This document shows, piece by piece, positions 10,042 through 35,624 of a DNA stretch of 35,624 nucleotides. Source of the stretch: a bacterium (lineage in GTDB: Bacteria > Cyanobacteriota > Vampirovibrionia > Gastranaerophilales > UBA9971). Location of the stretch: assembly GCA_037147175.1 (NCBI GenBank), contig JBAWVS010000026.1:1-35624 (forward strand), written 5' to 3'. Position numbers and translations under genes: made by a program. A model generated the notes under the pieces. The model had not been told where the DNA came from. It searched no databases and worked only from the letters and a program-made list of their open reading frames with translations. How positions within the stretch are numbered: the first letter of the stretch is position 1; the number at the start of each line of letters is the position of its first letter.

Positions 10042-10351
10042 TATTATTTTATTACTCTTACCAACCAATATTCAGCAATAAAATTATAGCTTAACCATAT
10101 TTATACTCAAATTTTTTAAGAGACTCTTATGTTAAAAACATATTATAGCCTTTCACGTTCTTTAACTTCAATTACCAATTAATTTTCTTATTGTCATGTT
10201 GAGCAAAGCGAAACATCTGTTCCTTTTGGGTTTTAAGCTTAAATGCATTTTTGGACAGATTCTTCGGACTAAAGCCCTCAGAATGACAATACCGGTATTC
10301 ATATGGATTTTGACTATCTGGGAGATTCACGTTATTTAGAGTATTTTTTGA
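10042..10351. other. 310-nt intergenic region carrying a dispersed repeat
   Basis: There is no gene between miaB and the epimerase gene. The region holds the miaB leader and the paired repeat element at 10190-10290. The rest is AT-rich sequence without recognisable structure. Confidence 0.7.
10190..10290. repeat. REP/BIME-like dispersed element 1, two facing hairpins
   Basis: Two structured units face each other. The left unit (10190-10218, plus strand) has stem ATGTT/AACAT at 10196-10200 and 10212-10216, an internal GA/GA, an inner GC/GC pair and an AAA loop. The right unit (10257-10290, read on the minus strand) has stem ATTCT/AGAAT, internal GA/GA, inner GGGC/GTCC and a TTTA loop. Both units start with ATTGTC, so the element ends are inverted repeats. 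The right unit recurs at 22407-22444 and related units occur at 13557 and 15966. Confidence 0.75.
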
Positions 10352-13556: not shown

Positions 13557-13636
13557 GAGGCTTTAGACTCGACACGGCAATCCATTTTATTTTTATAGAT
13601 TGCTTCGCTATACTCGCAATGTCGATTTTGGATATT
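13557..13636. repeat. REP/BIME-like dispersed element 2
   Basis: About 80 nt that align closely with element 3 (15980-16060): GAGGCTTTAGACTCGA, CAATCC, an AT-rich centre, then GATTGCTTCGCTA and CTCGCAATG. On the minus strand the right end forms the unit with stem ATTGC/GCAAT, GA/GA and an inner G-U pair where element 3 has G-C. The left terminal part present in element 3 is missing here, and the left edge abuts the pseudogene. Confidence 0.72.
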
Positions 13637-15880: not shown

Positions 15881-15965
15881 GCTAATTATCTGTTAATATT
15901 TTTATCCGTAGAACCTACGCCTTTTTCTCCCCTTTAAGTAACTCCAATTGTCAGTTAAATTTATG

Positions 15966-16048
15966 CGTCATTGGGCAAAGAGGCTTTAGACTCGAAGCAG
16001 GCAATCCGTTTTAATTTTATAGATTGCTTCGCTATGCTCGCAATGACG
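15966..16048. repeat. REP/BIME-like dispersed element 3
   Basis: Ends CGTCATTG (15966-15973) and CAATGACG (16041-16048) are exact inverted repeats. The right unit, read on the minus strand, has stem ATTGC/GCAAT, GA on both sides (one extra A), inner GC/GC and an ATA loop. The left unit contains GAGGCTTTAGACTCGAAG, matching the minus-strand right unit of element 1. It sits between the convergent flagellar and transporter genes, where it could also end transcription. No other gene fits in this gap. Confidence 0.75.
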
Positions 16049-16064
16049 ATTTTAGATATTCGAG

Positions 16065-17609
16065 TTAATTAAGCGTTTTGCCTTTTTCTTTGACGGTAAG
16101 TGTAATAATGGCTGCGATTAGTACAGAAATTCCGCCTACGATAAATGCATATTCCCAATGATGAGCCATTCCTCCATTTACAGACATTGGGCTTTTATTA
16201 ATTAAAAACCCTATAGCCACAGAAGTTAAGAGCTGAGGACCTGCGATAAACAGGTTAAATTTCCCCATAGCAGAGCCTTCTGTTCCGACCTGAATATGTT
16301 CTGTAAGCAAAGCAAACGGTAAAGCCAGAATCGAAGCCCAACCCAAACCTATTACACCCATAAAAACAAATACGGGAAGTGTAGACTTTGCAATAAATGC
16401 TAATCCCAGAAAAGACAAGCCCATTGTCGTTAATGATGCCGCATGCACGTTTTTCTTTCCGAATCTGTTGCATAAATACCCTAATGGAAGTGAAACAAGA
16501 AAGCATACTAAATTAAGCAGTGCAAATGCTCCGCCGGAAATGTTTGTTGCCTGAAGAATTTTAGCATTGAAAGAAGCCTTAATTGCCTCTGTAGCGGCTG
16601 AAAGATCAGGGATTTGATAAATATTATGTACGACATAATTGTTAAAATAAATAAAAAGACTCATCATTCCAAGCCATGTAAAAAACTGAACCGCACAAAG
16701 CTTGAAAATTTCTTTTGATTTAAAACTCATAAGCGCCATACCGAGCATTGGAACGCTTGTTATTAATACGAATAAAGATAAAAGATTAATCACCGAATCT
16801 TTATTTGAAAGATCAAATTTACCTGTTAAAAATATAATTCCCATAACAAAAAGTGAAATTAGCGCACTGATTCCAAAGTTTTTAGCAGGCTCTAATGCGC
16901 TTTCTTTCTGCGAATCATTTTTCTTAAGCTTTGTATTCTCTTTTGTTGTAAGGCTTGTGTAAAGAATACATACTGTAAAAGCAATTGCAGCCATTATAAA
17001 TTGTTGGTAAATAGACATTTGATAGCCCGTTAAAAGCTTAACAGCGAGCGGAGACCCGAAAGAAATTACTGAGCCGAGTCCTATTGCAAAACTCAGGTAA
17101 GAATTTGCAACAGCGTGTTGTTCTTGTGGCGCAATATCAGGAATTAAAGCCCTGTAAGGTCCCTGACTTATATTAACGCTGGCATCAATTATCCAAAGAA
17201 CTGCTGCCGCTAAAATAATCGCAGGAATCCCAATTTTTGTTGCTATAGCAAGAGAATTAGGAAAAGCAAGAAGGGCTAAACTTCCTATAATTGCACCTAC
17301 AATCAGAAAGGGTCTTCTTCTGCCGATTTTTGTCATAATATTATCGCTTATTACACCGATAATCGGCTGAACAAGAATGCCTGTAATAGGACCCGCAAGC
17401 CACATCAGACCAAAGATTAACGGTGTTGCACCAAGAGGTTCTGTAACTCTGCCGGAAAGTCCTATTTGCATTGACCATGCGAATTGCAAACCGAAAAAAC
17501 CTATACAAAGATTCAGCAATTGTTTTACAGAAAGTTTTTCGGGTTTATTTTCGTTTGACTTTGAAATAACTTCAGTTATTACTTCTATTTTTTCCTGAAC
17601 ATCAGCCAT
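16065..17609 (-). CDS. MFS sugar transporter of the SLC45/GPH-like type
   Basis: The 514-aa protein has about twelve hydrophobic helices and a polar N-terminal tail. After the second helix it carries GVISDNIMTKIGRRRPF, the MFS loop 2-3 motif as found in sucrose/maltose:cation symporters (SLC45, plant SUC). Further features are NISQGPYRALIPDIAP in the fourth helix region and GYLCNRFGKKNVH in the second half. It probably imports a di- or oligosaccharide with a cation; substrate unknown. The C-terminus ends in KEKGKTLN. GAGAGGG lies 6 nt before the ATG. It follows serS on the same strand with a 59-nt gap. Confidence 0.83.
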   Translation of the reverse strand: MADVQEKIEVITEVISKSNENKPEKLSVKQLLNLCIGFFGLQFAWSMQIGLSGRVTEPLGATPLIFGLMWLAGPITGILVQPIIGVISDNIMTKIGRRRPFLIVGAIIGSLALLAFPNSLAIATKIGIPAIILAAAVLWIIDASVNISQGPYRALIPDIAPQEQHAVANSYLSFAIGLGSVISFGSPLAVKLLTGYQMSIYQQFIMAAIAFTVCILYTSLTTKENTKLKKNDSQKESALEPAKNFGISALISLFVMGIIFLTGKFDLSNKDSVINLLSLFVLITSVPMLGMALMSFKSKEIFKLCAVQFFTWLGMMSLFIYFNNYVVHNIYQIPDLSAATEAIKASFNAKILQATNISGGAFALLNLVCFLVSLPLGYLCNRFGKKNVHAASLTTMGLSFLGLAFIAKSTLPVFVFMGVIGLGWASILALPFALLTEHIQVGTEGSAMGKFNLFIAGPQLLTSVAIGFLINKSPMSVNGGMAHHWEYAFIVGGISVLIAAIITLTVKEKGKTLN

Positions 17610-22406: not shown

Positions 22407-22444
22407 GGGACAGATTCTTCGTGCTAAAGCACTCAGAATGACAC
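22407..22444. repeat. REP-like dispersed element 4, single unit
   Basis: One unit, read on the minus strand: GTC, stem ATTCT/AGAAT, GA/GA, inner GTGC/GCAC, loop TTTA, then CTGTCC. It matches the right half of element 1 outside the inner stem, where both arms differ together and pairing is kept. It begins 2 nt past the miaA stop codon and may serve as the 3' end of that transcript. Confidence 0.75.
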
Positions 22445-35017: not shown

Positions 35018-35624
35018 ATGGCAGCAGAAAAAATAAGAATATATGAGTTGGCAAAAAATTTAGAGCTTTCTAATAAGGAAGTGATGGATTTGCTTGACCA
35101 AAAATTAAAGATTACGGCAAAATCCCATGCAAGCACTATTAGCAAAGAAGATGCCGATAAACTTGCCTCTTTAATTACCAAAAAACCGTCTTCTCCCGTT
35201 CCTCAACCAAAAGTTATAAATCAACCTAAACCTGAATCCGAAACCACTAACAAACCTGATAATTCTTTAACACAAAAAGCAGAACCTCAACAACAAATAT
35301 CAAAACCGGCAGAAACAGACCTTCAAAGACAAAAACCTCCGATGGGAAAACCTTACGGGGAAAGACCTGAAGAAAAACAAGAAGGAAGAGATTTTAACAG
35401 ATTCCCGAGACCACAAGGTGATAGACCGCCAATGGGAGGAGGAAGACCGTTTCCTCCGAGACCACAGGGTGATAGACCGCCAATGGGAGGAGGAAGACCA
35501 TATCCTCCGAGACCACAGGGTGATAGACCGCCAATGGGAGAAGGAAGACCATATCCTCCGAGACCACAAGGTGATAGACCGCCAATGGGAGAAGGAAGAC
35601 CATATCCTCCGAGACCACAAGGTG
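35018..35624 (+). CDS. infB: Translation initiation factor IF-2, 5' part (cut by window end)
   Basis: The first 202 codons of infB, truncated by the end of the window. The N-terminal IF2_N domain reads EKIRIYELAKNLELSNKEVM and is followed by LDQKLKITAKSHASTISKED. A Pro/Gln/Lys-rich linker comes next, and from 35405 tandem 17-residue repeats. The GTPase domain lies outside. AGGAG is found upstream of the ATG. It belongs to the rimP-nusA-rnpM-infB operon, 31 nt after rnpM. Confidence 0.93.
   Translation, partial: MAAEKIRIYELAKNLELSNKEVMDLLDQKLKITAKSHASTISKEDADKLASLITKKPSSPVPQPKVINQPKPESETTNKPDNSLTQKAEPQQQISKPAETDLQRQKPPMGKPYGERPEEKQEGRDFNRFPRPQGDRPPMGGGRPFPPRPQGDRPPMGGGRPYPPRPQGDRPPMGEGRPYPPRPQGDRPPMGEGRPYPPRPQG
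35405..35624 (+). repeat. 51-bp tandem repeat inside infB
   Basis: Four complete units (starting 35405, 35456, 35507 and 35558) and a partial fifth cut by the window end. Each encodes PRPQGDRPPMGGGRPYP or a close variant (Phe for Tyr, Glu for one Gly). The units differ at only a few bases. The repeat keeps the reading frame, so copy number can change without breaking IF-2. Confidence 0.92.

Follow-up and report, generated by a model that had tools for sequence, protein, structure and literature searches.

Four elements, intergenic by the listing of open reading frames, lie in the window, the whole stretch of 35,624 nucleotides analysed here. A sequence-only reading of this DNA had described them as paired hairpins, with two units facing each other in elements 1 and 3, and all four are found at the positions it gave. 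The facing units have the layout of a REP dimer, as it had proposed. What is repeated reaches beyond the hairpins it described: the extents of elements 1 and 3 had to be redrawn, as their dimers lie between outer inverted ends of a AACTCGAATTGCC-like sequence. The features are:

10164..10333, no strand: composite element 1, a family B MITE of 170 bp, in which a head-to-head CGTC dimer is enclosed by outer inverted ends
10164..10176, + strand: left outer end of element 1, AACTTCAATTACC
10193..10217, + strand: CGTC-type unit of element 1, stem ATGTT/AACAT, inner stem GC/GC
10258..10287, - strand: CGTC-type unit of element 1, stem ATTCT/AGAAT, inner stem GGGC/GTCC
10321..10333, - strand: right outer end of element 1, AACGTGAATCTCC
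13557..13636, no strand: element 2, a decayed family C copy with a decayed partner beside one unit
13598..13623, - strand: CGTC-type unit of element 2, stem ATTGC/GCAAT, tag TGTC (read as GACATTGC)
15940..16066, no strand: composite element 3, a family C MITE of 127 bp around a head-to-head ATTGC dimer
within 15940..16066: outer ends of element 3, AACTCCAATTGTC / AACTCGAATATCT
15967..16006, + strand: CGTC-type unit of element 3, ATTG../..CAAT, with one stem mismatch
16022..16047, - strand: CGTC-type unit of element 3, stem ATTGC/GCAAT
22407..22442, - strand: element 4, a lone half-element with a GGGACAG tail
22413..22442, - strand: unit of element 4, stem ATTCT/AGAAT, inner stem GTGC/GCAC

The two units of element 1 (10193-10217, +, and 10258-10287, -) are oriented toward one another; its outer ends have diverged, and the target duplication is no longer present. 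The elements resemble one another in sequence: the right half of element 2 is 92% identical to element 3 across 61 nt, and element 4 is 92% identical to positions 10253-10288 of element 1. At the right edge of the window (35354-35608) lies a tandem repeat with a 51-bp spacing, the later copies of which are 94-96% identical, within an open frame.

Judged by named matches, the host lineage appears Gastranaerophilales-like. In the 2.66-Mb genome that contains the window, the pattern GTCATnnnGAG-N6-20-GAnnnATC, in which GTC and AT are fixed and the nnn/nnn arms are free, has 95 matches compared with 0 for the reversed pattern, which rules out a copy number near random expectation. Among the copies in hand the free arms are fully complementary in 65 of 68 matches, and the distinct arms are complementary in 21 of 24 cases against 12.1 after shuffling (maximum 17). 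For 20 distinct 25-mers from this genome and its relatives, 96.4% of cells pair (83.8% when shuffled), and the covariation score, which was not calculated with R-scape and in which relatedness remains in the shuffles, is 0.421 against 0.151, none of 500 shuffles being as high and slid partners giving 0.09 or less. Columns 6 and 22 of these units pair as C-G in 8, U-A in 7, G-C in 4 and G-U in 1. The complementary free arms and the covariation above shuffles thus bear out the earlier claim that the structure, and not the sequence, is kept. The majority of the units in this genome occur in 95-bp head-to-head dimers that join a long unit, ATTCT with an inner stem of the GGGC/GCCC type, to a short one (ATCCT or ATGTT). 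The GA/GA step is not universal: many units adjacent to the nuclease genes described below (ATTCCCGCG..., ATCCTGAACTTGTTTCAGGAT) pair straight through.

The window units belong to the superfamily of CGTC-tagged REPs, which includes Rickettsia RPE-4 and RPE-6 and Neisseria dRS3 (Di Nocera et al., 2013, PMC3733652) and is one of the two large REP superfamilies. The base preceding GTC, which was left free while GTC was fixed by the design of the search, is a pyrimidine (T or C) in 94 of 104 units, and head-to-head dimers predominate. AT was also fixed in the search pattern, and non-AT stems with a CGTC tag occur at two named loci (L390, L391). Members of the superfamily have an uninterrupted stem of 8-9 bp, a loop of 4-5 nt and a short 3' tail that is mostly CCA (PMC3733652). 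The window units depart from this stem, with 5 bp, the GA/GA step and then 2-4 bp, and nuclease-adjacent units elsewhere (ATTCCCGCG, ATCCTCGGG) have it; the 3' tails observed are CTC, CCA, CTA, CTT and CTG. In the 2013 survey no transposase gene, RAYT or other, had CGTC units on its flanks; the enzyme was left open, and these REPs, without a dedicated transposase, were suggested to be perhaps dying out or borrowing enzymes (PMC3733652).

In the genome of the window the flanks of the dimers are repeated as well. Extraction by the outer inverted ends yields 46 distinct TIR-core-TIR composites, which fall into three families, A of 182 bp, B of 169 bp and C of 135 bp, all with AACTCGAATTGCY-like inverted ends, and most of the head-to-head dimers examined sit within these MITEs of 135-182 bp; some (L024, L041) have no outer ends. 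A target duplication of exactly 4 bp, such as AAAT, AATT, ATTT or GATT, is present in 17 of the 46 composites compared with 7.3% of mispaired flanks (p ~1e-8), and 5-bp duplications are found in none of the 46. No autonomous partner appears among the listed matches to the inverted ends in this genome. A genome of the same family (G015) contains an 873-bp element (C16:30914-31786) with a single transposase ORF, an AGTT duplication and AACTCGAATTGCT exact at both ends, identical to the 13-bp ends of the MITEs. The best NCBIfam match of the transposase is IS982 (E 9e-31; 107 bits, the equivalog cut-off being 130), and its Pfam match is DDE_Tnp_1 (E 3.5e-11). Most of the dimers examined are very probably carried in short MITEs moved by a DDE (IS982-like) transposase, which would cut and paste the MITEs in trans and duplicate 4 bp of the target. 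This layer explains local multiplication without a RAYT. In two further genomes (G010, G019; L361-L371), MITEs with the same ends enclose other paired GC-rich hairpins (GCGGCTGGCTTCGCCAGCCGC and others); most have 4-bp duplications, and the orientation of the loop flips between copies (GGCTTCGCC / GGCGAAGCC).

Two units in the genome of the window adjoin small nuclease genes, one of the GIY-YIG type and one encoding an HNH protein with homing-associated repeats. When all GIY-YIG genes of the genome were read, two members of one small subfamily had units; the other five, rejected as partners (plasmid-like, phage-like and UvrC genes), had none. An internally deleted copy (L105) has units on both sides, and at the intact copy just one side has a unit, at a distance of 115 bp. 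Beside the intact gene lies the HNH endonuclease gene (PF18780, PF01844; L071:418-1113, - strand, contig C27), between two inverted ATCCT units ~835 bp apart.

The GIY-YIG subfamily comprises proteins of 95-120 aa (PF01541, E 1.4e-14) with invariant catalytic-type residues. A protein search finds it in 75 of 146 genomes of the order, and a scan of 85,000 species genomes finds at least 566 relatives, from which the best 80, covering ~25 phyla, were taken. Loci were selected by protein only, and the 80 global loci are best matches and not a random sample; some of the genomes are drafts, in which genes may be missed. A unit was defined as GTC, a five-base stem starting with AT, 6-30 nt, the exact reverse complement and C, a strict definition: inspection by eye reveals units with longer loops or non-AT stems at loci that it scores as negative, such as L131, L390 and L391. 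Such a unit occurs within 200 bp of the gene at 87 of 102 usable loci and on both sides at 62 of 102. Within the order the counts are 24/29 and 16/29, and for the global loci (73 usable among the best 80 of at least 566) 63/73 and 46/73. The background density is 0.035-0.052 units per 200 bp. Of 166 other ORFs at these loci, 21 have a unit on either side and 3 on both sides; Fisher tests against them give p values of 5e-34 (either side) and 2e-29 (both sides), which overstate the certainty because the loci are related. Two control gene families in the same genomes, four-helix-bundle (0/30) and DUF559 (0/19), lack units, so that a general flanking of any small mobile-looking gene is ruled out. 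The association between nuclease and unit is real and specific, almost beyond doubt. The CGTC units at these loci, across ~25 phyla, also support the statement of the sequence-only reading that similar palindromes are common in unrelated genomes. The number of units is higher in genomes with the nuclease than in those without it (mean 22.6 vs 11.0, p 0.002, uncorrected for kinship), and 12 unit-rich genomes have no nuclease gene; so weak a relation is expected if units outlive the gene.

Annotated plasmid records name the gene “GIY-YIG nuclease family protein” or “excinuclease ABC subunit C.” CGTC units border it in Rhizobium, Shinella, S. meliloti pSymB, Azospirillum lipoferum 4B and Aeromonas caviae, non-AT CGTC units border it in Novosphingobium and Sphingobium, and a Neisseria gonorrhoeae record has the gene with CGTC units inside a dRS3 array; among these plasmid records, no unit was found at the gene of Rhizobium tumorigenes. 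Several of the named hosts are species in which CGTC REPs were described (PMC3733652), and Sinorhizobium meliloti and Azospirillum lipoferum are CGTC-rich hosts carrying the gene. The S. meliloti pSymB copy is at 1705154-1705438 of CP090106. In A. lipoferum 4B (L388) the gene and its units interrupt the suf operon between sufB and sufC, and in Bradyrhizobium hipponense (L173) at least five identical CGTC dimers follow the gene in tandem, with a period of ~169 bp. The intragenic analysis of the 2013 survey left out hypothetical proteins shorter than 120 aa (PMC3733652), and this is perhaps why the gene was missed. In the literature searched, outside which lie preprints and many subscription papers, no paper connects GIY-YIG proteins with REP, RAYT, REPIN, MITE or palindromic repeats, and novelty is to that extent unproven.

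The nuclease element has a median length of 396 bp. The gap between the upstream unit and the gene is typically 5-40 bp, the gap between the gene and the downstream unit typically 0-35 bp, and the nearest units face inward (+ over - upstream, 55:19; - over + downstream, 60:15). Both flanking units have an identical 5-nt stem at 46 of 65 loci compared with 22.2 expected. One genome (G035) holds two copies at unrelated sites: the similarity between them (98% identity) sets in at the upstream GTC tag and stops at the downstream GAC tag, with unrelated sequence beyond; in another genome (G131) the left boundary also falls exactly at the tag. Target duplications at nuclease elements are not above chance. 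Insertion into palindromes or into larger elements with inverted ends was considered and rejected, as an outer inverted repeat is present in only 2 of 52 elements (38 bp at L129, 11 bp at L119), and the unit tags are thus the usual boundary. At L129 (G055, contig C19) the element lies at the exact centre of the perfect 38-bp outer inverted repeat, recalling the palindromes that surround REP dimers in Halothiobacillus and Anabaena (PMC3733652).

The enzyme and the stem class of its units co-segregate. On the nuclease tree, which has 97 columns and many unresolved forks and for which clustering alone is claimed, stem class (ATTGC, ..CT, ..CC) requires 14 changes against 34.3 when shuffled, and for the global loci only, 9 against 19.0 (minimum 16); the tree thus follows stem class. 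The CC stem group spans Pseudomonadota, Spirochaetota, Nitrospirota, Chlorobiota and one Kerfeldbacteria genome. A single orthologous site, between rimP and nusA, allows a comparison among congeners, which is between species and not base-exact: two carry the nuclease element, two have a compact spacer without a dimer and two have a different element with inverted ends. In G032 (contig C12; L250/L255, L314) the site that the GIY-YIG element occupies in congeners has a gene encoding a four-helix-bundle protein (23S rRNA IVP family) between inverted arrays of GGGAATAAG-type repeats. The arrangement resembles a further small mobile unit that carries a gene, and the protein ends ...IERSE, which is perhaps unit-derived.

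The best explanation is probably that the genome holds both MITE-borne CGTC dimers and units derived from a general nuclease-bearing mobile element. This element would be ordered as YGTC tag, unit, small GIY-YIG nuclease gene, inverted unit and tag, and the dispersed units and dimers would be its non-autonomous relatives, as REPs are of REPtrons. The nuclease may recognise the hairpin of the unit through its stem class and the YGTC tag and cut single-stranded or cruciform DNA at that tag. A new copy of the segment so delimited, whether or not it includes the gene, would then arise elsewhere through template switching or host repair. From the association, the orientation, the tag-bounded copies and the co-segregation we infer cleavage by the nuclease, its position and its role in driving the spread of units. 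GIY-YIG enzymes hydrolyse DNA and do not rejoin it; joining and integration must therefore come from host factors. That the nuclease mobilises the units is reasonably likely, and this small protein is the best candidate for the missing enzyme of CGTC REPs. The broader reading, in which CGTC REPs at large owe their spread to a GIY-YIG nuclease whose gene lies in an element of ~400 bp delimited by the tags, which would be a second and chemically unrelated REP-mobilising system present in most bacterial phyla, is favoured on balance.

The sequence-only reading had attributed the spread of the units to a RAYT/Y1 transposase, and the REP-like dimers and the slightly higher unit counts in genomes with Y1 genes (p 0.04) agree with this. 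The genome of the window has no intact Y1 gene, however: its single Y1 trace, a decayed IS200-type TnpA fragment (C7:22426-22542; L031:1500-1620), falls below the cut-off, has two internal stops and was rejected as a source of units, none being nearby. Y1 genes are present in 44 of 146 genomes of the order, and at 26 usable loci, where flanking units were looked for, none has units on both sides (0/26); a unit within 200 bp occurs on one side at 4 of the 26, always more than 130 bp away. With the lack of CGTC-flanked RAYTs in the published survey (PMC3733652), this makes mobilisation by a RAYT most improbable. The dimers of this genome could also have no history of their own and be nothing more than the hairpins inside an IS982-type MITE, as the other paired hairpins enclosed by same-ended MITEs in G010 and G019 would allow; dimers without outer ends (L024, L041) and the presence of the same units beside GIY-YIG genes across phyla render this very improbable. 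Nor are the units likely to be RNA terminators or stability hairpins that flank the nuclease gene by selection, for instance as insulation. They are intergenic, lie near 3' ends and tolerate G-U pairs, but the two other small-gene families of the same genomes are without them, and tag-bounded copying, MITE duplications and cross-phylum co-segregation of enzyme and unit indicate mobility, so that a role in expression is a very improbable account of the association.

A homing origin deserves closer weighing, since the GIY-YIG fold is one of those of homing nucleases, the gene at many loci just takes the place of the dimer spacer, and the HNH gene with homing-associated repeats also lies between two units. 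Under this reading a GIY-YIG homing endonuclease gene parasitises CGTC dimers that spread otherwise: the nuclease would cut empty dimers and be copied in by repair, with the units as homology arms. Yet a genome usually has 1-4 copies of the gene against tens to hundreds of units, which is the ratio of RAYTs to REPs, and in two congeners that lack the gene rimP and nusA are separated by a compact spacer with no dimer in it. Ratios and site argue mildly against homing. The tag-to-tag copy in G035, which includes its units, points the same way, although dimers could have pre-existed at both sites. Homing is accordingly possible but rather unlikely, and mobilisation by the nuclease is preferred.

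CGTC REPs are among the commonest bacterial repeats, the Rickettsia and Neisseria families included, and their enzyme has been missing since 2013. With a specific and widely conserved partner gene their mobility becomes directly testable, and a protein of ~95 aa together with a hairpin of 25-30 nt makes for an easy assay. Should the nuclease prove to mobilise the units, then REP systems originated two or more times on the basis of unrelated enzymes, and the genes annotated under the two names given above, which number in the thousands, would acquire a function.

The elements described here can be compared with four known systems. With the CGTC-tagged REPs (PMC3733652) they share the YGTC tag, the head-to-head dimers, the intergenic location and the covarying stems, and probably the AT-first stem and the 3' tail; they differ in the internal GA/GA step of the units of this lineage, in the many dimers that lie within MITEs and in the GIY-YIG partner gene, which was unreported there. 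The MITE layer resembles the IS982 family and its MITEs in having one DDE transposase ORF between short inverted ends and non-autonomous copies with identical ends. By contrast, the interiors of the MITEs are hairpin dimers of CGTC units, and the G015 transposase scores below the IS982 equivalog cut-off. Like the products of free-standing GIY-YIG homing genes and UPF0213 proteins (PDB 1zg2, 1ywl), the nuclease has a minimal GIY-YIG domain in which the positions Y, R, H, E and N are invariant, but its gene is REP-bounded and located outside introns and inteins, at unrelated sites. REPtrons, in which RAYT/TnpA-REP genes are flanked by GTAG REPs, also place a single small gene between inverted units, with few gene copies and many units, an enzyme type that matches the unit type and no target duplication seen. 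The gene product here, however, is a GIY-YIG nuclease and not an HuH tyrosine transposase, and the tag is YGTC and not GTAG or GTGG.
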